NCBI GenBank assembly: GCA_017396055.1
Contig: JAFQND010000043.1
Span: 1 to 11,707 of the forward strand
Source: Oscillospiraceae bacterium
GTDB lineage: Bacteria; Bacillota; Clostridia; Oscillospirales; Ruminococcaceae
Direction of reading: 5' to 3'
Length of the DNA: 11,707 nt
Position 1 is the first letter of the stretch, and the number at the start of each line of letters is the position of its first letter. Position numbers and translations under genes: made by a program. Below, piece by piece: positions 440 through 8,767 of the stretch. Below the pieces are notes generated by a model. The model worked only from the letters and a program-made list of their open reading frames with translations, had not been told where the DNA came from and ran no database searches.

Positions 440-1522
440 TCATCCGTTGAAAATGACTTTTCCGTGGATATAGTCATAGCAAAGCGTGCGCTTGATACGA
501 AGATAGTGGTCGGCATTGTCACCCACCCGCACCAGTTTGAAGATGCCGCGGTTCACGTCGACGGATACGACGTTGAAGCAGTCATAGGTCCTTGTACCGC
601 GGACCCGTTTGCCGTCGCACCAGCCTGCCCAGTCAGCAGCACATTCCACGATCGTATTCAATACGCCGTTATCGGTAAAGCCGAAATTATCCGCATGGTT
701 ATGTCCGACCAGATTGGTGATATGAATGCCGCCTTTTGCCTTAAACTCCGCAATGACCGCATCAAAGACATGGGTATCATTGGGCTCGGTCACATTGAGC
801 GACTGGAAAGTCACGTCAAATTTATCCGTGATCTGTGCGCTGGGTTCATGCATCGCGGTCAGCAGATGCATTCCCTTTTCTCTGGTATCGTCCAGAATTC
901 TCTTCAGCCACTCGACCTGTTCTTCCAGATCGTAATAAAGATTCAGAACGACCAGACGGATATTGGATTCGGGGAAATCCCGGTAATAGGTCATCGAATA
1001 TTCGCCGGGCATAAAGACCGCACCCCAGTTTTCAGTGTGGCCAAAAAGCTGCCGGTGAGGGATATCCGGACCTTCCATTTTGCCGGTATGACCAGAAACG
1101 GTGTCGTGATTTCCAACACAGTTCAGAATCGGACGGACACAGGGTTCGCCCTCAACATAACAATCGTGAAATTCTTCCTGAATACCGCCGCAGTAATCGC
1201 CGGTGTGCAGACCGAAGGAGATGTAATCCTTGTAGTGATTGACATACTCCACCATGCGGTTCCAGGCTTCCAGATTGGCATGAAGGTCGGAGAGATGCAC
1301 GAACTGCAGAATATCATAATCGTTGCCGAGAAACTCGGTACGCAGTGCCGATGCCTGGATGACAAAGGGCTCCACATCCTTGTTCAGCGAAAGAATGCTC
1401 TCGATGGGTGGGAGCTTCTCGTCGGTATGCTCACACCAATAAACCGGGTCATAAGGTTTGATCGTAAGGCTGTCGTAATACTGACACAGTTTTCCCATGT
1501 CGCGTTCCTGATGGATGGACAT
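440..1522 (-). CDS. Calcineurin-like metallophosphoesterase
   Basis: Protein of 360 residues, last gene of the minus-strand operon. The two-metal phosphoesterase motifs occur in the usual order: SDLHAN (78-83), GDYCG (108-112), GNHD (137-140), a lone His in MHEPS (225) and GHNH (273-276). The core is therefore complete and should be active on a phosphomonoester, phosphodiester or pyrophosphate bond. About 70 residues precede the first motif and are not recognised. About 80 follow the last; they are rich in aromatic and basic residues and may form a cap. No signal peptide or membrane segment is visible, so the protein is probably cytoplasmic. The start at 1522 is supported by AGAAGGGA (1533-1540) ten bases upstream; an in-frame Met at residue 9 is the alternative. 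It lies 50 bases after the glycosidase-like gene with no terminator between them. The substrate cannot be read from sequence; context suggests a phosphorylated or nucleotide-linked sugar. Confidence 0.9.
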   Translation of the reverse strand: MSIHQERDMGKLCQYYDSLTIKPYDPVYWCEHTDEKLPPIESILSLNKDVEPFVIQASALRTEFLGNDYDILQFVHLSDLHANLEAWNRMVEYVNHYKDYISFGLHTGDYCGGIQEEFHDCYVEGEPCVRPILNCVGNHDTVSGHTGKMEGPDIPHRQLFGHTENWGAVFMPGEYSMTYYRDFPESNIRLVVLNLYYDLEEQVEWLKRILDDTREKGMHLLTAMHEPSAQITDKFDVTFQSLNVTEPNDTHVFDAVIAEFKAKGGIHITNLVGHNHADNFGFTDNGVLNTIVECAADWAGWCDGKRVRGTRTYDCFNVVSVDVNRGIFKLVRVGDNADHYLRIKRTLCYDYIHGKVIFNG

Positions 1523-1572
1523 ATGCTTATTATCCCTTCTTTTATGTTTCGTGACAGCAATCTGCCGGAGTA

Positions 1573-2913
1573 TCAGGCTTCTACCGGAGCAATCTCGGTG
1601 GAAGGGATCACATCCTTCTCCAGATAATACTCGATAATGGACGGCTCGTCTGCAGCAGGCTCAACGCGGTAAAGTTCCATTCCGCCCTCGATAAAATGCG
1701 CGGTAAATTCGGTCACATTGTCACAGAGGATGCTCTGTTCACCTGTTTCCCGGCTGACTTCATACACACGCGAGGGCTGTCTGAAGGTGATGGTAATATC
1801 TTTTTCTTCAAGATAATCACGGTTGAGCACCATCAGATAATCGTTTCCGTATCCGTCGGTCAGCTCAGAAACAGAAGTGCGGTAAGGCAGTTTTCCCGCA
1901 AGCAGCTTGCTCTCGCTCATGGAAGTGCGCAGTTCTTCCATATACGGACAATCCGGCAGCAGCGAATCGTCATGAATAACATGGGTACATTCCAGTGCCA
2001 TCAGCGTTCTGCCAAGTTCAGCGAGCTCTGCGTGGATCTGCTTCTGGTCTTCAAAGAACACGCCGTGACCGCCGTCGGCGGGGTCAACAACACATTCCCA
2101 TGCGGTGTAGTGCTGAAGGCCTTTGACGCCGTAAAGAAGCGCCGCGTGCATCATCAGGCGGATCATCGGGAAGATATAGAACTCTTCATAATGCAGATTC
2201 TGTCCCTGATAATAGAACCAGAAGGGGATATTACGTTTTTTGCACGCTCTGCGGACATACTCCAGGTCGCACCACATCAGCGACTCATCCAGCTGACGGG
2301 TCTTGTCATGCTCCTTCATGCCCACCGGATAATAGTCGAACGACATGATGGGCGGGTCGATGATGTCCATGAAATTATCGATGTATTTGCTGTAGTTGCC
2401 GTCTTTCCACAGAAAACGGGGATTATAGCTGGGATTGGCAACGGTAAAAGGAAGTGCGGATGGTCTTTCCCGCTCGCAGAGATCCATCATCCGGCGGGTC
2501 GTATGCATCTGTTCGATCGTCGTGGGTTCGTCCCAGATATAATAGCCGACGACCGATTTCCACCGGCGCATCTCCTCCATCGAGGCGAGCAGGTCATTGG
2601 TCTTACAGAAAACATTCTTCGGTCCCATACCGCCATATCGCTTCAGATTCTGATAGATGATGCCGATGCCCAGCTGCTCGCACATCTGTACGGCAGCCTT
2701 GGCCCGCTCAGGGCTTGCCCAGCCAAGCTCCAGAAGGTTGAAACCCGCATTGTAACAGGTCCTGACCGATCGGCGCATGATCTCGTTGTTTTCTTCGCTT
2801 TCATCGTCCAGCTTCAGAAGGCCGGGAGAAAAGGTCGACAGTACAAAATTATCCTGAGACCAGATTCTTCTGGGATTGGAAAGAGGAAATCTCGCAAGAA
2901 GTTTCTTTTTCAT
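1573..2913 (-). CDS. Cytoplasmic TIM-barrel glycoside hydrolase-like protein
   Basis: Protein of 446 residues from the ATG at 2913. The sequence reads as a (beta/alpha)8 glycosidase-like barrel followed by a small beta domain. Features are NAGFNLLELGWASPE (55-69), GYYIWDEPT (123-131) with Glu129 at an acid/base-like position after strand 4, FDYYPVG (192-198), WFYYQGQ (232-238) and HYTAWE (268-273), where Glu273 is a candidate nucleophile. From about residue 350 a beta-rich tail with YLMVLNRDY resembles the C-terminal sandwich of retaining glycosidases. I cannot assign a GH family number; catalytic activity is inferred. There is no signal peptide, so any substrate would already be inside the cell. 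The frame stays open upstream to a Met at 2970, but that start would overlap the preceding gene and lacks a good ribosome site. The gene lies 41 bases downstream of the oxidoreductase gene. Confidence 0.75.
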   Translation of the reverse strand: MKKKLLARFPLSNPRRIWSQDNFVLSTFSPGLLKLDDESEENNEIMRRSVRTCYNAGFNLLELGWASPERAKAAVQMCEQLGIGIIYQNLKRYGGMGPKNVFCKTNDLLASMEEMRRWKSVVGYYIWDEPTTIEQMHTTRRMMDLCERERPSALPFTVANPSYNPRFLWKDGNYSKYIDNFMDIIDPPIMSFDYYPVGMKEHDKTRQLDESLMWCDLEYVRRACKKRNIPFWFYYQGQNLHYEEFYIFPMIRLMMHAALLYGVKGLQHYTAWECVVDPADGGHGVFFEDQKQIHAELAELGRTLMALECTHVIHDDSLLPDCPYMEELRTSMSESKLLAGKLPYRTSVSELTDGYGNDYLMVLNRDYLEEKDITITFRQPSRVYEVSRETGEQSILCDNVTEFTAHFIEGGMELYRVEPAADEPSIIEYYLEKDVIPSTEIAPVEA

Positions 2914-2921
2914 GATAATAA

Positions 2922-2928
2922 CTCCTTT
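2922..2928 (-). promoter_or_regulatory. Ribosome binding site deciding the start at 2913
   Basis: The minus strand reads AAAGGAG eight bases before the ATG at 2911-2913. This favours that Met over the in-frame Met 57 bases upstream, which would lie inside the end of the oxidoreductase gene. Confidence 0.85.
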
Positions 2929-2954
2929 ATTTTCCTGCAGCATCGTCTGTAAGA

Positions 2955-3782
2955 TCAGACTTCGACCCACACACCGGGAGTTTCAAGCGCTTTCAGACCG
3001 GCCTCACGAACAGCCATAATGTTCACTGTTTCGGCATGGGCAACGGGTGCTTTGCCGGTACGGAAAAACTCCACCAGTGCCACGATAAAATCATGGAAGA
3101 AATCAGACTTCACTTCGATCATTCTGCTTTCGCCTTTGCAGTGAAGGTTGCAGAGGAAAGGTGCACCGTACACATAGCCTGAGATGCTGCCGGCTCTGCC
3201 GTCGGCAAAATCAACGGTCAGCTGATACCATCCTTCGGCAGTCATGGCCATGACCCGTTTTGCAGAGGTACCCATCAGCATCATCAGCGGTTCCAGCTGA
3301 TGGATCGAATAGATCTCAAAATCGTTGGGGCCCCAGAAGCTGGCAGCCAGCAGGTCTTTTCCGGCATCTTTATACTCGGCCGCATATCGCAGTGCCGAGG
3401 TGGACCAGCAAGGTGTGCCAGATTCTTCGGCGATGGCAAAAATACGCTCAGCAGAAGCTTTGTCGGGCGCAAAGGTCTTGTCCACATAACAGGGCTTTCC
3501 GGAACGCAGAGGCAGCTGACAGAGCTCCTCATGGAACTCACAGTTATCGGGAGAAAGCACGACCAGGCAATCGCTCTTTTCGATCAGTTCTTCCATGGTG
3601 GCGCACTGCTTCACACCGAACTTTTCGCACCAGGCGGCAGTGGTCAGACCGCCTTTGGGGCTGTCGATCTTTGCCCAGGCATAGGCCACTTCGATCTCAC
3701 CGTCTGATGCTTCTTTGATCCACTGGGGATAGTTATTGGCGTGCCATTCGTCGATATAATAATCGATAAATCCAAGTTTCAT
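2955..3782 (-). CDS. Atypical Gfo/Idh/MocA-family oxidoreductase
   Basis: Protein of 275 residues, shorter than the usual 330-400 of the family. The Rossmann half carries LVVLSPDN (73-80) and GKPCYVDKTFAPD (95-107), the counterpart of the family's EKP segment, with Lys102 as the likely catalytic lysine. The C-terminal half contains a beta-sheet domain with IHQLEP (160-165), where His161 fits the second conserved active-site position, and VDFADGRAGSISG (190-202). The odd feature is the N-terminus: where GxGxxG nucleotide binding is expected it reads IDYYIDEWH (6-14). Dinucleotide binding may be altered or lost. Family members oxidise or reduce sugars, inositols and similar polyols with NAD(P). 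The start at 3782 has GAGG overlapping the stop of the upstream gene (10-base gap), which points to translational coupling. It is a cytoplasmic protein in the middle of the operon. The fold call is good; the reaction is unknown. Confidence 0.8.
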   Translation of the reverse strand: MKLGFIDYYIDEWHANNYPQWIKEASDGEIEVAYAWAKIDSPKGGLTTAAWCEKFGVKQCATMEELIEKSDCLVVLSPDNCEFHEELCQLPLRSGKPCYVDKTFAPDKASAERIFAIAEESGTPCWSTSALRYAAEYKDAGKDLLAASFWGPNDFEIYSIHQLEPLMMLMGTSAKRVMAMTAEGWYQLTVDFADGRAGSISGYVYGAPFLCNLHCKGESRMIEVKSDFFHDFIVALVEFFRTGKAPVAHAETVNIMAVREAGLKALETPGVWVEV

Positions 3783-3792
3783 GGCCTAATCC

Positions 3793-5112
3793 TCACTTCT
3801 TCATCAATTCAATAGTCTGTCTGACAAGATCATCCACATTCACGTCGTTGAAATCCTGGATAGAAGTCAGAAGTTTTCCGCCAAAGGGCTCGACCCAGTC
3901 ATCCGGGATGCCGCCGTTGCGCATGCCAAGAATAGAACCTACGGTAGCACCGTTGCAGTCGGTATCAAAGGCAGACTGTACAGCAAGACAGATGCTCTTG
4001 CCAAAATCGCCGCCGCCCGTAAGCAGCGCCATGGTCACGATCATTGCGTTGGAAATGGTATGGCACCAGCCGTGGGAAGTATTCTCGTCCCAGCATTCAT
4101 GGATCTTTTCGATGATCTCTTCGCCGGTCAGACCTTCTCTGTACCAGCGGATGACCTTTTCAACATCTTCGCGCAGGCGGCATTTTTCGGGGATCTCATC
4201 CAGACCGGCTTCGATGATCGTCATGATATCATCTGTAACAGCAGCCGCAGCGATCATGGCAGTGCAGAACATCTCACCATAAATACCGTTCTTCACATGA
4301 GAGATGGACGCATCCCGCAGTGCCATTTCAGCGGCGGTCTTGGGATCGCCGGGACAGATATAACCGAAGAAATCACCCCGGATCTGGGCGCCGATCCACT
4401 CGCGGTAAGGGTTGAGATGGGTGGCGGTATAAGGAGGCAGCAATCCCATGGCAGCATTGCGATAGGCTACCCGCTCAGCAGTGCAGAGCGCAAGATAAGG
4501 AATATCCCTCATCCAGCCTTCCATGACATCGTCGGCGGTGAAGTCCCGACCGCATTTCTGAACCAGTTTCAGGGCAAAGACGGTATAGTTGGTATCATCA
4601 TCCTCCGGAGCCTTGCCGTCGATGGTGTCCACCCAGCAGCGATTGATCCAGAGGCTGCCCAGTTCCTTTTCCAGTTCAGGGGTGAACTCGCTTCTGCGGA
4701 CATAGCGCTTCATGGGATAGTTATCGGTCGCTTTAAGCATGGTATACAGCAGCGGACGACGCATACCCTCCATGGGTTTTCCGAGCAGACAGCCGGCAAT
4801 ACGGCCCAGCCACGCTCCCCGGAGCTTTGCCTCATCCGGTGCGGCAGGAGTCAGCTGATGGCGTCTTTCTCCCAGGCAGTCCACGATCGAGCCAAGATCG
4901 GACGGTTCCATATAGGGATAGTCCTTCCGGATGCGCTGGTGGTGCATCTCTTCGGCGGTGATTCGGGCGAGATCCTCCATCTCTTTTCCGTTCTTTGCGA
5001 TCTCTTCACAGATGGTACGAAATCTTTCTACATTCAGACCCTCTTCCATACACTGGGTCCATTCGGTCATCATTTCGGGAGCAAGATAAATCCAGGGCTG
5101 ATTGTTCAGCAT
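3793..5112 (-). CDS. ADP-ribosylglycohydrolase-fold (DraG/ARH-like) protein
   Basis: Protein of 439 residues, first gene of the operon. The all-helical DraG/ARH fold is indicated by GAWLGRIAGCLLGKPMEG (99-116), EDDDT (170-174), GDPKTAAEMALRDASISH (255-272) and FDTDCNGATVGSILG (382-396). The aspartates at 171-173 and at 383 and 385 match the metal-binding sets of the family. The classical GDA of the first motif is GCL here, so this belongs to a divergent subgroup. Roughly the first 90 residues are an added helical region. Known members remove ADP-ribose from proteins or cleave related N- or O-glycosidic bonds; in a sugar-type operon the substrate may be a small glycoside. The start is chosen at 5112, with AAAGGA nine bases upstream. 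A Met six codons earlier (5130), with GAGG five bases ahead of it, is a real alternative. The frame remains open to 5169 without a better start. Confidence 0.85.
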   Translation of the reverse strand: MLNNQPWIYLAPEMMTEWTQCMEEGLNVERFRTICEEIAKNGKEMEDLARITAEEMHHQRIRKDYPYMEPSDLGSIVDCLGERRHQLTPAAPDEAKLRGAWLGRIAGCLLGKPMEGMRRPLLYTMLKATDNYPMKRYVRRSEFTPELEKELGSLWINRCWVDTIDGKAPEDDDTNYTVFALKLVQKCGRDFTADDVMEGWMRDIPYLALCTAERVAYRNAAMGLLPPYTATHLNPYREWIGAQIRGDFFGYICPGDPKTAAEMALRDASISHVKNGIYGEMFCTAMIAAAAVTDDIMTIIEAGLDEIPEKCRLREDVEKVIRWYREGLTGEEIIEKIHECWDENTSHGWCHTISNAMIVTMALLTGGGDFGKSICLAVQSAFDTDCNGATVGSILGMRNGGIPDDWVEPFGGKLLTSIQDFNDVNVDDLVRQTIELMKK

Positions 5113-5121
5113 ACAGTCACA

Positions 5122-5127
5122 TCCTTT
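5122..5127 (-). promoter_or_regulatory. Ribosome binding site favouring the start at 5112
   Basis: AAAGGA on the minus strand lies nine bases before the ATG at 5110-5112. A competing GAGG (5136-5139) precedes the ATG at 5128-5130. If the proposed promoter is right, transcription starts near 5134, which would leave the competing site outside the mRNA. Confidence 0.55.
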
Positions 5128-5140
5128 CATCGTTACCTCA

Positions 5141-5169
5141 AGACTAGCACAAAACTCACCGGTTGGCAA
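5141..5169 (-). promoter_or_regulatory. Possible promoter of the four-gene minus-strand operon
   Basis: On the minus strand TTGCCA (5164-5169) is followed after 17 bases by TAGTCT (5141-5146), which is preceded by TGC as an extended -10. The -10 match is only fair (3 of 6), so this is tentative; no better pair was seen in the divergent gap. Confidence 0.35.
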
Positions 5170-5296: not shown

Positions 5297-5665
5297 ATGG
5301 GTAAATTCGTTGTAAAAAAAGTAAACACCGGTATCAAATTTAACCTGCTCGCCACCAATGGCCAGGTTATCGCCACTTCTGAAGTCTATACCACCGCTGC
5401 TGCCTGCAAGAACGGTATCGCAAGCGTTGCCAAGAACGCTCCCGCTGCCAACGTGGAAGACCAGACTGTCGAAGGCTACACCGCTGTTGCTCATCCCAAG
5501 TTTGAGATCTACACTGACAAAGCCGGTGAGTTCCGCTTCCGTCTGAAGGCTACCAACGGCCAGGTCATCGCTGTTTCCGAAGGCTACAAGACCCATGCAA
5601 GCTGTGTAAACGGCGTTGAGTCCGTCAAGAAGAACGCTGTCGACGCTGAAATCGTTGAGGAATAA
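5297..5665 (+). CDS. Tandem DUF1508 (YegP-like) domain protein
   Basis: Small protein of 122 residues made of two copies of the DUF1508/UPF0339 motif. Copy one runs at about 13-48 (KFNLLATNGQVIATSE, then CKNGIASVAKNA); copy two at about 79-114 (RFRLKATNGQVIAVSE, then CVNGVESVKKNA). Proteins of this type, such as E. coli YegP, are small two-repeat beta/alpha proteins of uncertain function. There is no signal peptide, so it is probably cytoplasmic. GGAGGT (5284-5289) lies seven bases before the ATG. Codon choice is strongly biased (AAG/AAC/GTC/GCT-type codons, few rare ones), more than in its neighbours. With the near-consensus promoter and clean terminator this suggests an abundant protein expressed from a single-gene transcript. 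It diverges from the degradation operon and converges on the MFS-GH2 gene. Function unknown; domain call very secure. Confidence 0.92.
   Translation: MGKFVVKKVNTGIKFNLLATNGQVIATSEVYTTAAACKNGIASVAKNAPAANVEDQTVEGYTAVAHPKFEIYTDKAGEFRFRLKATNGQVIAVSEGYKTHASCVNGVESVKKNAVDAEIVEE
5351..5572 (+). repeat. Diverged direct repeat within the DUF1508 gene
   Basis: The 24-base segments at 5351-5374 and 5549-5572, 198 bases (66 codons) apart, match at 20 positions. All four differences are third-position silent changes. They encode the same ATNGQVIA core in each domain copy. The internal duplication is therefore visible in DNA, kept either by protein selection or by gene conversion. Confidence 0.75.
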
Positions 5666-5677
5666 TCTCTGACGCAT

Positions 5678-5711
5678 AAAAACCGCCTGCTCTTCTGAGC
5701 GGGCGGTTTTC
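5678..5711. terminator. Bidirectional intrinsic terminator
   Basis: A stem of about 14 pairs, including AACCGCCTGCTC (5681-5692) with GAGCGGGCGGTT (5697-5708) and one G-T pair, closes over TTCT. T-rich tracts follow on the plus side, and an A/T tract serves the minus side. It lies 12 bases after the DUF1508 stop and just beyond the end of the MFS-GH2 gene. Confidence 0.9.
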
Positions 5712-5714
5712 TTT

Positions 5715-8690
5715 TTATTCTGTTTTGAGTCTGAACGCATTTTTCAGTTCAGCGGCAAGAGCGGACATCTCTTCTCCGTCTGCTTTGACCACAGCACGGT
5801 CATAGGTAACAAGACCGTTGGTCTCGTCTTCCACATCGCTGACCTGCGTCAGCACAGCAGCCGAAAGGCCGGATTCAATGGCAGGGATGATCTCCTCCCG
5901 ATACAGTTTCTTCAGGGCTTGTGCAAATTCTTCTTTCGTTTTAAAGAAACTGTAGCCATAGGTCTTATCCAGATTAAAGGCATGCCCCTCGATTTTACAG
6001 GAATAGCCGCCGAATTCAGACAGCACCATCGGTCTCGCGGGATCGGCCTTCATGGTGACCTTTTTGAAATAGATATGTTCTGAGGTAACATCGCTCTTTG
6101 TTTCGGTAAACCAGCCGGAGGTGGCGTCCCAGACTCTTGTCGGATCATATGCCTTCATTTCCGAATAGATCCGGTCGGCATCATACTGGCCCCATCCCTC
6201 GTTGAAGATGGTGTAATAACAGACACAGGGGTGGTTGTACAAAAGGTCTGTCACCGCTCTCGAGTTCGCCTCAAAGGCAGCGCGGCGTCTGGCCGATGCA
6301 TGGTGGGTAATGCCTTTTTTCAGTCCGACAGTCGGCAGAGCAGTATCGATGAGGAAACTGTATTTTCCGCTGTTGACCATATCCTGGAAAACGATCATAC
6401 CGTACTTGTCACAGAGATAATAAAAGACATCCGGCTCGATCTTGATATGTTTTCTCAGCATGTCAAAGCCCAGTTTTTTCATGGTCAGGATATCATATTC
6501 GTATCCTTCCGGCGATGCAGGCAGATAGATGCCGTCGCTGTAATAGCCCTGATCCAGAAGGCCGTGGAAGAAATACGGTTTTCCGTTGAGGCAGATATAA
6601 GCCTGACCGTTTACCGTTTCTATCGTCACGGTACGCAGTGCAAAATAGGATTCGATCCTATCCCTGCCGGATAGAAGGGTAAGCGTATAGAGATAGGGAT
6701 CATCCGGCGTCCAGTTTCTGGGATGTTCGATGGAGATCTCTGTTCTGTCTCCGGTCCAGCTGTGGGTAAGTTCACCGTCCTGTGTACGGATGATGACTGT
6801 TTTCTCCGCTTCGCCGCCGGCTGTTTCAATGGTGATGCTGTCGGGAGAAGGAGTCAGCCTCAGAGAAGTGATCGCTTTTTCGGGCAGGCTTTCCAGCCAT
6901 ACCGGCTGCCAGATACCGCTGACAGGAGTATACCACATACCGCCCCGGTCGGTCCGCTGCTTGCCCCACGCAAGCTCCCGGTCGAGATCGTCGGTCACCT
7001 CGACCTCGATCCCGTTGATGCCTTCCCGGATAAACTGTGTCACATCCAGACAGAAAGGCAGATAACCGCCCTCATGCCGGCCCGCCTCCCTGCCGTTCAC
7101 CCGGACAACGGCGATCTGATCCACCGCGCCGAAATGCAGAATGAGTTTATCCTGCACAAAACCATCGGGCAGCGCAAAACTCCGGCGGTAAAGCCATTTC
7201 TCTCCCTTTTCCAGTGTGCGTCCGATGCCGGAAAGAGGCGATTCCGGCGGGAAGGGTACCTTGATCCTGCCGACAGGTGTTTCTGTTCCGTCTTTCAGTG
7301 CGCTCAGCTCCCACTCGCCGTTCAGCGGCAGATAAGACGCTCTCTTCATCTGCGGGCGGGGGTATTCATTCCAGCCGGAAGGTTCGAAAGAAGTATAAAG
7401 CTGCACGGTGCGGGGCTTTTCTTTCGGGATCAGAAGCAGCAGCATCACCAGTACTGCTGCTGCGATCAGCGCCGCCAAAAAGATATTTTCATTGGGAACA
7501 AAGGAATAGGTACCGTCGTTATTGAGGATCATCTCGGCGTTTTTCAGCACCGTCTTGCCGATGAAAGGACCAATGATACCTGGGACCAGCACCTGTGAGA
7601 AGATGCGGACACCCTGCAGCATACCCGCCTTACCCGCCGGGATCAAATCACGGATCTTTGCGCCGAAGACCGCCATGCCGGCAAGATAGCCGCACATCAT
7701 CAGAAGAGATCCGACGAATACCATGGCCGTACCTTTACAGAGATAGAGAATGACATATCCTGCCATGAGCCAGAAAAGAGAAATACCAGCCGCCAGAACA
7801 AAGCCCTTTTTATCATAGAATCTGCCCCAGAAGGCTGAGACCACCGCGGCGATCAGAATGGCGGGCGCCATGACATAGACATAATTTGCCATGCCCAACG
7901 AAACTTCGTAATAGATGATCAGATAGGGCATGAAAATCTGGATCGAGATATTGAACAGAATAAATGCCGCAAGGAAGAAATAAAGCTTACCATGCACTTT
8001 CACTGTGGAGGGACGGAAACCATAGAGCACATTCTGCCAGTATCCTGCCTCGGAAGGAGCCGCAGGACAGTCCTCGATAATAAACAGACCAATGATACCG
8101 ATCAGCAGTACAGCCGCGCCGATGATCGTGAAAATCACAGTCCAGCTTTCAGCTTCATCCAGATTAAATCCCATAAAGGAGCCGAATACGGCAAGGATCG
8201 CGATCAGCGGCATCATGGCATTGATGCCCTCGGCGGCACCGCGGTTTTCACTGTCGACACTGTCGGTGAGCCAGGCATTGAATGCGGCATCGTTTGCCGA
8301 CGAACCAAAGAAGGTCATGACACAGTCTAAGACGATGGTCAGGCTGACGCCCACCGCCGCGGCTGACGCAGCCATGGGGAAAACCGCCCCGATCACATCC
8401 GCTCTGATCAGAGCAAAACAGAAGATCGAAATACCCCAGAGGATATATCCTCCGCAGATAAAGACCTTGCGCTTGCCGATACGGTCGGACAGTGCGCCGA
8501 TCAGCACGGTGGTCAGCGTCGCCGCAACGGCGCTTGCACCCACCATCAGTGAAATATCCGCTGCAGATGCGCGGAACATCTTATAGATAAAGACGTTGAG
8601 ATACATATTTTCCACGACCCAGGCGATCTGTCCGATCAGACTGAACAGGGTCAGGGAGAGCCAGAAACGGGGCGATAATTTTTTCTGCAT
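5715..8690 (-). CDS. MFS transporter fused to a GH2 glycoside hydrolase
   Basis: One uninterrupted frame of 991 residues. Residues 1-422 form a complete major facilitator transporter: about 12 hydrophobic helices, motif A as GALSDRIGKRK (65-75), and a cytoplasmic loop near 206-234. After a linker of about 25 residues comes a full GH2 enzyme. It has a jelly-roll start at LNGEWELS (456-463) and an immunoglobulin-like middle (about 605-690). The TIM barrel (about 695-985) has acid/base Glu831 in FNEGWGQ (829-835) and nucleophile Glu892 in SEFGGYS (891-897). An even helix count puts the enzyme in the cytoplasm, tethered to the importer. The NxK signature of beta-glucuronidases is not seen near the C-terminus (NGLVTYDR instead), so sugar specificity is open. 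GGGAGG ends seven bases before the ATG. I see no ribosome site for separate GH2 translation near Met447. Joint import and hydrolysis of a glycoside is inferred. Confidence 0.9.
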   Translation of the reverse strand: MQKKLSPRFWLSLTLFSLIGQIAWVVENMYLNVFIYKMFRASAADISLMVGASAVAATLTTVLIGALSDRIGKRKVFICGGYILWGISIFCFALIRADVIGAVFPMAASAAAVGVSLTIVLDCVMTFFGSSANDAAFNAWLTDSVDSENRGAAEGINAMMPLIAILAVFGSFMGFNLDEAESWTVIFTIIGAAVLLIGIIGLFIIEDCPAAPSEAGYWQNVLYGFRPSTVKVHGKLYFFLAAFILFNISIQIFMPYLIIYYEVSLGMANYVYVMAPAILIAAVVSAFWGRFYDKKGFVLAAGISLFWLMAGYVILYLCKGTAMVFVGSLLMMCGYLAGMAVFGAKIRDLIPAGKAGMLQGVRIFSQVLVPGIIGPFIGKTVLKNAEMILNNDGTYSFVPNENIFLAALIAAAVLVMLLLLIPKEKPRTVQLYTSFEPSGWNEYPRPQMKRASYLPLNGEWELSALKDGTETPVGRIKVPFPPESPLSGIGRTLEKGEKWLYRRSFALPDGFVQDKLILHFGAVDQIAVVRVNGREAGRHEGGYLPFCLDVTQFIREGINGIEVEVTDDLDRELAWGKQRTDRGGMWYTPVSGIWQPVWLESLPEKAITSLRLTPSPDSITIETAGGEAEKTVIIRTQDGELTHSWTGDRTEISIEHPRNWTPDDPYLYTLTLLSGRDRIESYFALRTVTIETVNGQAYICLNGKPYFFHGLLDQGYYSDGIYLPASPEGYEYDILTMKKLGFDMLRKHIKIEPDVFYYLCDKYGMIVFQDMVNSGKYSFLIDTALPTVGLKKGITHHASARRRAAFEANSRAVTDLLYNHPCVCYYTIFNEGWGQYDADRIYSEMKAYDPTRVWDATSGWFTETKSDVTSEHIYFKKVTMKADPARPMVLSEFGGYSCKIEGHAFNLDKTYGYSFFKTKEEFAQALKKLYREEIIPAIESGLSAAVLTQVSDVEDETNGLVTYDRAVVKADGEEMSALAAELKNAFRLKTE

Positions 8691-8698
8691 ATTATTTC

Positions 8699-8728
8699 CT
8701 CCCGGTGATTACTGCTTTCATTATAGCA
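8699..8728 (-). promoter_or_regulatory. Promoter (-10) and ribosome site of the MFS-GH2 gene
   Basis: The minus strand has a perfect TATAAT (8720-8725) preceded by TGC (8726-8728), an extended -10. The -35 region would fall in the upstream terminator arm and is poor. The transcript would start near 8713, and GGGAGG (8698-8703) lies seven bases before the ATG. The mRNA leader is only about 20 bases. Confidence 0.7.
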
Positions 8729-8732
8729 TAAA

Positions 8733-8767
8733 CAAAAAGAAAAAGGCAGTGCCGAAGCACTGCCTTT
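8733..8767 (-). terminator. Intrinsic terminator with UUCG loop after the GNAT gene
   Basis: An 11-bp perfect stem (8742-8752 with 8757-8767) reads on the minus strand as GGCAGTGC-TTCG-GCACTGCC, followed by TTTTTCTTTTTG. The UUCG tetraloop is unusually stable. It isolates the acetyltransferase transcript from the MFS-GH2 promoter immediately downstream. Confidence 0.92.

Follow-up and report, generated by a model that had tools for sequence, protein, structure and literature searches.

Does the Oscillospiraceae locus analysed here truly encode a transporter and a glycosidase in a single polypeptide and, if so, what might the two gain from being joined? The window, i.e. the whole stretch of 11,707 nucleotides, is an entire contig (C275) of a draft metagenome-assembled genome (MAG; 67.72% complete, 2.9% contaminated, 351 contigs), and its reverse strand carries a gene in which a major facilitator superfamily (MFS) transporter runs in frame into an enzyme of glycoside hydrolase family 2 (GH2). 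Here we find that the fusion is genuine and conserved as a full-length protein. We suggest, with confidence a little better than even, that it is a self-contained unit for furanoside uptake and hydrolysis with a tethered enzyme, which would have arisen from an overlapping gene pair and whose benefit would lie in dosage, joint inheritance or local concentration.

The fusion protein and its homologues

The open frame holds, as the first-pass annotation had claimed, a complete 12-helix transporter and a complete enzyme in 991 residues (Table 1). Pfam MFS_1 matches residues 29–375 with a score of 81.3 bits against a cut-off of 33.4. Residues 497–870 are matched by four GH2 models, which cover the sugar-binding, immunoglobulin-like and TIM-barrel domains of the family, every one above its cut-off [scores, with cut-offs in parentheses: PF02837 52.7 (28), PF00703 24.5 (23), PF02836 31 (21), PF22666 41.8 (27)]. 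The AlphaFold2 model (88 sequences; mean predicted local distance difference test, pLDDT, 87.4; predicted template modelling score, pTM, 0.69), a structure prediction having been proposed as a check, shows 12 membrane helices, of which the last stops at residue 418 and gives way to the GH2 fold. Because helix 12 ends there and the structural match to the GH2 enzymes 7sf2 and ORF1110 begins at residue 428, the free linker is about nine residues long (419–427); thus the order of helix 12, linker and enzyme had been called correctly, while the suggested linker length of about 25 residues was too great. Both catalytic glutamates, E831 (FNEGW) and E892 (LSEFGG), lie at the positions first assigned to them.

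A protein search yielded 7894 matches among 8000 scored candidates, and the figures given here rest on the best 120 of the 7894. All 120 keep both halves, MFS_1 plus one or more GH2 Pfam domains being recognised in each, at 988–1027 aa and 65–99% identity over 99–100% of the query. The existence of fused full-length homologues runs counter to the scenario, entertained with the original call, in which homologues always split at residues 422–450. Nine residues of the enzyme half that were checked, both catalytic glutamates included, are identical in 121 of 121 sequences (the query and its 120 homologues), and N830, E831 and E892, which form the NE acid/base motif and the nucleophile, are among the invariant positions. 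The few of these records that bear a name are called 'MFS transporter'. An assembly artefact, frameshift or missed stop codon at the junction might be suspected in so fragmented a draft MAG, but its probability is negligible, because the best 120 homologues are full-length fusions, such fusions come from many independent assemblies, and one fused locus (L044) belongs to a named cultured isolate, Acetatifactor muris DSM 23669.

In genome collections at least 582 loci were confirmed, and the best 80 of them, which are best-match samples rather than frequencies, comprise 26 one-frame fusions, 19 adjacent pairs with MFS before GH2, two with GH2 before MFS, 15 GH2 genes alone, three GH2 genes cut by a contig end and 15 MFS genes alone. 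Within its own genus the fusion occurs in one of 14 genomes, and in the other 13 all matches start at residue 441 or later. In the family sample (threshold E ≤ 1e-80, states assigned by reading the match rows) 29 of 197 genomes match: five with a one-frame fusion (the source genome, G014, G132, G197 and G207, the last two cut by a contig end), five with adjacent genes (G027, G045, G055, G084, G117), one with the halves on different contigs (G194) and 18 with the GH2 half only. Two of the 398 genomes in the phylum sample match, namely the source genome, with the fusion, and another that has just the GH2 half. Among a set of gut Clostridia the fusion occurs often; it is rare elsewhere and patchy even inside the genus. 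The first-pass annotation had called such covalent fusion uncommon, which holds outside the clade (five of 197 family genomes and one of 398 phylum genomes) but not within it, where fusion is common.

The enzyme half and its substrate

We propose that the MFS half carries a small furanose-ended glycoside into the cytoplasm, the end most likely being a beta-D-galactofuranosyl or alpha-L-arabinofuranosyl residue. Tethered to the cytoplasmic face of the membrane by the short linker after helix 12, the GH2 half would then remove the terminal furanose by the retaining mechanism of GH2. The protein would have arisen through fusion of an overlapping MFS–GH2 gene pair, and the main gain would probably be equal amounts of the two activities, joint inheritance and local enzyme concentration, rather than an obligatory channel. 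Both the furanose substrate and the benefit of tethering are what we infer from the lines of evidence below.

The best sequence matches of the GH2 half are 9j6n (GH2_18; 312 bits) and 7xyr (GH2_19; 191.5 bits), with the next at 84.3 bits, a ranking that may point to GH2_18, and a fold search matches GH2 enzymes, 7sf2 being the nearest solved chain. The nearest characterised enzyme by sequence and fold is ORF1110, a beta-D-galactofuranosidase of GH2_18 (9j6m/9j6n; PMC12243196, PMC4560423, cited here, like the other PMC sources, for the excerpts available). It has in common with the window protein the catalytic glutamate pair, the loop-8 threonine and seven of eight mutation-sensitive acidic residues; the window protein differs in its N-terminal MFS transporter, in that no AbfB domain was detected in it, and in sequence (34–37% identity). 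According to the excerpt of PMC12243196, GH2 group III (GH2_18 and GH2_19) has a threonine replacing the loop-8 tryptophan, and T948, whose correspondence is drawn from a motif common to 7sf2 and ORF1110, is present in 121 of 121 sequences. In the same excerpt, GH2 beta-hexuronidases carry an NxK motif in loop 8, and by eye none occurs in the loop-8 stretch TQVSDVEDETNGLVTYDR. Overall, the enzyme stands closest to the GH2 furanosidases (ORF1110 and the uncharacterised 7sf2) and not to the beta-galactosidase or beta-glucuronidase groups, a kinship that the first-pass annotation had not noticed.

The same tethered unit might nevertheless act on a pyranoside, either a beta-galactoside or another beta-glycoside, and we regard this as the foremost alternative, though an unlikely one. 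The title of 7sf2 is beta-galactosidase, minority activities are described inside subfamilies (PMC12243196, in part), and the best NCBIfam matches are to beta-glucuronidase and beta-galactosidase models. Those matches, however, are partial and all far under cut-off (at best 88.8 against 544 bits), leaving a beta-glucuronidase or LacZ-type name unsupported, and ORF1110 is described as inactive on beta-D-galactopyranoside (PMC4560423, in part). The invariance of the loop-8 threonine, in a stretch (TQVSDVEDETNGL) that by eye lacks NxK, also argues against a pyranoside.

Separate forms and the history of the fusion

If tethering matters, how do relatives fare whose halves are apart? The 97 loci that we classified comprise 31 fused, 22 adjacent, two reversed, 24 with GH2 alone, three with GH2 cut and 15 with MFS alone; seven of the 24 GH2-alone loci are distant relatives at 37–38% identity, and one 'adjacent' locus (L119) matches over the full length but is interrupted by an in-frame stop. 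Reading each junction from the start codon closest to it that gives a relative-like GH2 N-terminus, we found that 17 of 19 adjacent MFS–GH2 junctions range from a 17-base overlap to a 1-base gap, the remaining two having gaps of 139 and 193 bases. In 28 genomes chosen since one half stood alone there, both halves were present in 17, always on two different contigs (in seven of these the GH2 half is 60–64% and the MFS half 68–73% identical to the window protein), and one half only was detected in 11, all drafts. Since the halves are separate genes in many relatives, they need not be covalently linked. By eye, the stand-alone GH2 proteins of L033, L037, L041 and L116 open with a linker-like ...PRLxxLxTPFE, as expected if they derive from a fused ancestor, and adjacent pairs outside the fused clade have a different GH2 N-terminus (MKTEFAKLYTP...).

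Trees of the two halves, from quick searches, are unrooted and carry Shimodaira–Hasegawa-like approximate likelihood ratio (SH-aLRT) support only, and long branches were flagged (L085, L119, L002). The GH2 tree has 95 rows, 16 taken from the 121 proteins of the homologue set and the others from sufficiently covered loci; L044 was left out because coverage of its best segment was low, and odd composition was flagged in six rows. Here a single group of 66 rows (SH-aLRT 98) takes in the fused rows and the split rows nested among them, and L024 and L026 group with the main fused clade (98); explaining the fused label takes no fewer than eight changes, four of them forced by starred branches, against a shuffled mean of 31.8. 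The corresponding figures for the MFS tree (83 rows) are at least nine changes, four of them forced, and 27.3; in this tree L024, L026 and L044 stand on the split-form side of a supported branch, inside an unresolved fork. Both trees are compatible with a single fusion. In the simplest history an overlapping gene pair would have fused once and the product would later have split several times, leaving the halves as neighbours (L018, L046, L052) or unlinked. Independently, such genes may have fused again in the Lachnospiraceae/Treponemataceae lineage of L024, L026 and L044. Two fused loci, L026 from a Treponemataceae MAG and L044 from A. muris, fall outside the Oscillospiraceae-type clade. Their GH2 halves contain long insertions, a hint of transfer between gut Lachnospiraceae and spirochaetes.

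Such a history could also have unfolded with no mechanistic benefit, an overlapping pair being joined by a small indel, drifting and being kept as harmless. Indeed, one small indel or stop loss could fuse the pairs, given that 17 of 19 overlap or nearly touch, and split forms recur and persist. We nonetheless consider this improbable: all of the best 120 of 7894 homologues are fused, so that the state has lasted through long divergence, and the fused label is clustered on both trees, a weak argument because kin sequences cluster by descent anyway. The coupling could conversely be tighter than we propose. In hydrolysis-coupled uptake, a hydrolytic counterpart of group translocation by the phosphotransferase system (PTS), the enzyme would take the glycoside straight from the transporter's inner gate, each cycle would end in cleavage with no furanose backflow, and in split relatives a complex would replace the covalent link. 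We hold this to be quite improbable. The first-pass annotation, too, had suggested that the glycoside is cut as it emerges. Because split forms persist, unlinked ones included, an obligatory channel seems unlikely, and dosage, inheritance and concentration would suffice as benefits of the tethered furanoside unit that we favour.

The transporter half and its orientation

Conservation is stronger in the MFS half than in the enzyme: mean identity is 68.9 versus 57.5% across 30 fused loci, with the MFS half ahead in all 30, and 63.8 versus 52.2% across 24 adjacent or reversed loci, with the MFS half ahead in 23. The MFS half has the features of an MFS member, namely an MFS_1 profile match above cut-off and 12 helices in two halves; it is assigned to no curated transporter family and is close to no solved or curated carrier. 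MFS_2 (PF13347; GPH sugar:cation symporters) scores 18.4 bits in the window protein, under its cut-off of 27. Against solved structures, a profile search gave one weak match (AmpG, 23.1 bits) and a single-sequence search a weak match to SLC45A4 (24.4 bits). The fold search ended in ties among many MFS families, with MelB and exporters among the matches; since so many families tied, the absence of any one of them is uninformative.

The exporters among the fold matches, and weak NCBIfam efflux-family matches that are all far under cut-off, would fit an MFS half that acts as an exporter or sensor, with the GH2 substrate made or imported otherwise. This appears very unlikely, as the weak solved-structure matches are to SLC45A4 and the muropeptide permease AmpG, which we take to be import-type carriers, and an exporter paired with a degradative exo-glycosidase is hard to rationalise. 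We infer that the MFS half is an importer and, from its fold, that it is probably cation- or proton-coupled.

For the orientation of the protein, charges were counted with helices taken from the model and the N-terminus taken as inside. Inner loops of the window protein hold 18 lysines plus arginines and outer loops six, and the inner count is the higher in 78 of 78 rows with enough coverage (of 88). Between helices 2 and 3 lies GALSDRIGKRK, a segment similar to MFS motif A, which is cytoplasmic in known members. Because the helix number is even, an N-terminus inside places the enzyme inside as well; thus the GH2 enzyme is predicted to face the cytoplasm, as had been suggested from the sequence at the outset, and the starts of stand-alone GH2 relatives, by eye without an obvious signal peptide, agree. 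On the outer face, D392, G393, T394, S396, F397 and P399 of the loop between helices 11 and 12 are invariant in 24 aligned transporters, fused or split. This predicted hairpin, in which residues 391–394 have a pLDDT under 50, is unusually conserved for an outside element and is perhaps a substrate lid.

Gene context

Clustering of 655 neighbouring open reading frames (ORFs) within 5.5 kb of the classified loci gave an ABC-ATPase-like cluster in 14 loci and no other cluster in more than six, i.e. no conserved neighbours. We scanned 30 of the 100 nearest neighbours of F, S and R loci and 20 of M and G loci; these 50 belong to assorted families that vary from locus to locus, the only obvious carbohydrate enzymes being a GHL10 glycosidase-like protein (L079) and a pfkB-type kinase (L017), besides a SASA-family esterase (L011). 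The fusion gene looks like a stand-alone unit. The sole recurrent close neighbour, one cluster of four fused loci, is an aminoglycoside 3-N-acetyltransferase-like gene (PF02522), 11–18 bases upstream of the fusion in L006, L112, L114 and probably L007. One scan of 2.9 million viral contigs gave four pattern matches, none confirmed, hence no relatives; among plasmids, none of 18 records covers 80% of the query, and the ten matches listed cover the GH2 half only.

Table 1. Features of the fusion gene and its upstream region (window coordinates).
Feature	Position	Strand	Basis
MFS–GH2 fusion gene, 991 aa + stop	5715..8690	-	Open frame of 991 codons, Pfam, homologues
MFS transporter domain, residues 1–418, 12 predicted helices	7437..8690	-	Pfam MFS_1, AlphaFold2 helices
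Outer loop between helices 11 and 12 (residues 382–401), predicted beta-hairpin, motif DGTxSFxP	7488..7547	-	Alignment and model
Linker, residues 419–427, PKEKPR-rich, positively charged	7410..7436	-	Helix 12 end at 418; GH2 structural match from 428
GH2 furanosidase-like domain, residues 428–991	5718..7409	-	Pfam, sequence and fold matches
E831, predicted acid/base (FNEGW), aligned to E464 of ORF1110	6198..6200	-	
E892, predicted nucleophile (LSEFGG), aligned to E530 of ORF1110	6015..6017	-	
T948, loop-8 Thr (Trp replaced), typical of GH2 group III	5847..5849	-	Position inferred from TQVSDVE motif
TGCTATAAT-like -10 (8725–8720) and GGGAGGA ribosome-binding site (8703–8697) before ATG	8697..8725	-	By eye
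Terminator-like hairpin (11 pairs, TTCG loop, T-rich tail) between upstream GNAT gene and fusion gene	8742..8767	-	

The hairpin scan as a whole is near its shuffle background (six found, shuffled mean 4.7), and the -10-like site is absent from the listing of the promoter scan, the counts of which are at shuffle level. Two DUF1508 (HVO_2922 family) repeats at 5297–5665 on the forward strand are convergent with the fusion gene, and a strong terminator-like hairpin (5679–5710) lies between the repeats and that gene. A separate co-oriented cluster on the reverse strand (440–5169) encodes an ADP-ribosylglycohydrolase (PF03747), a Gfo/Idh/MocA-type protein (PF01408) and two proteins of 465 and 360 aa with no Pfam or NCBIfam match at 1e-3; by eye, the former has a WDEP motif and is barrel-like, and the latter is metallophosphoesterase-like. 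An aminopeptidase fragment at the contig edge (1–390) is 87, 82 and 81% identical to G004, G007 and G003 of the same genus, the best other genus in the family sample reaching only 75%, and from these identities the contig appears rightly binned. The other window genes were not found beside the aminopeptidase gene in G003, G004 and G007 (loci L121–L123), and so this part of the window may be a variable region or hold a join near position 400–440.

Significance and comparison with known systems

The fusion defines a large family in gut Clostridia that has been overlooked, the few named records being called 'MFS transporter', which hides the enzyme half. We propose that it may be a way for gut Clostridia lacking an evident furanose locus to exploit glycans that end in galactofuranose or arabinofuranose. 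Because fused, overlapping, reversed and separated forms coexist, the question of whether tethering is of benefit is directly testable with natural variants.

The 12-helix MFS fold is common to the MFS half and the GPH/MelB and SLC45 carriers, which we take to be the comparable MFS sugar carriers, and we know of none of these that carries a GH domain. A search of the open-licence PMC literature found no description of an MFS–GH2 fusion. Split MFS–GH2 pairs are an instance of the transporter–GH neighbours surveyed in PMC10272396, in which 57.4% of GH genes were colocalised with a transporter gene and the excerpt available treats neighbours rather than single polypeptides. The closest parallel is LplT–Aas, an MFS lysophospholipid flippase and an acyltransferase whose genes sit side by side in an operon in many bacteria and form a single ORF in others; a complex has been shown, substrate tunnelling proposed and Aas found to be peripheral, and the excerpt states that the fused proteins are uncharacterised (PMC11416262). 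In both systems an MFS transporter is paired with an inner-face enzyme acting, for MFS–GH2 presumably, on the delivered substrate, the genes being adjacent in some genomes and fused in others. LplT–Aas differs in its lipid substrate, in acyl transfer and in the fold of its enzyme; the likeness to the putative MFS–GH2 unit is one of arrangement only, and we claim no homology between the enzymes. Transporter–enzyme fusion is therefore already known; as far as we have seen, the version that joins a sugar importer to a glycosidase is new, widespread but unremarked.

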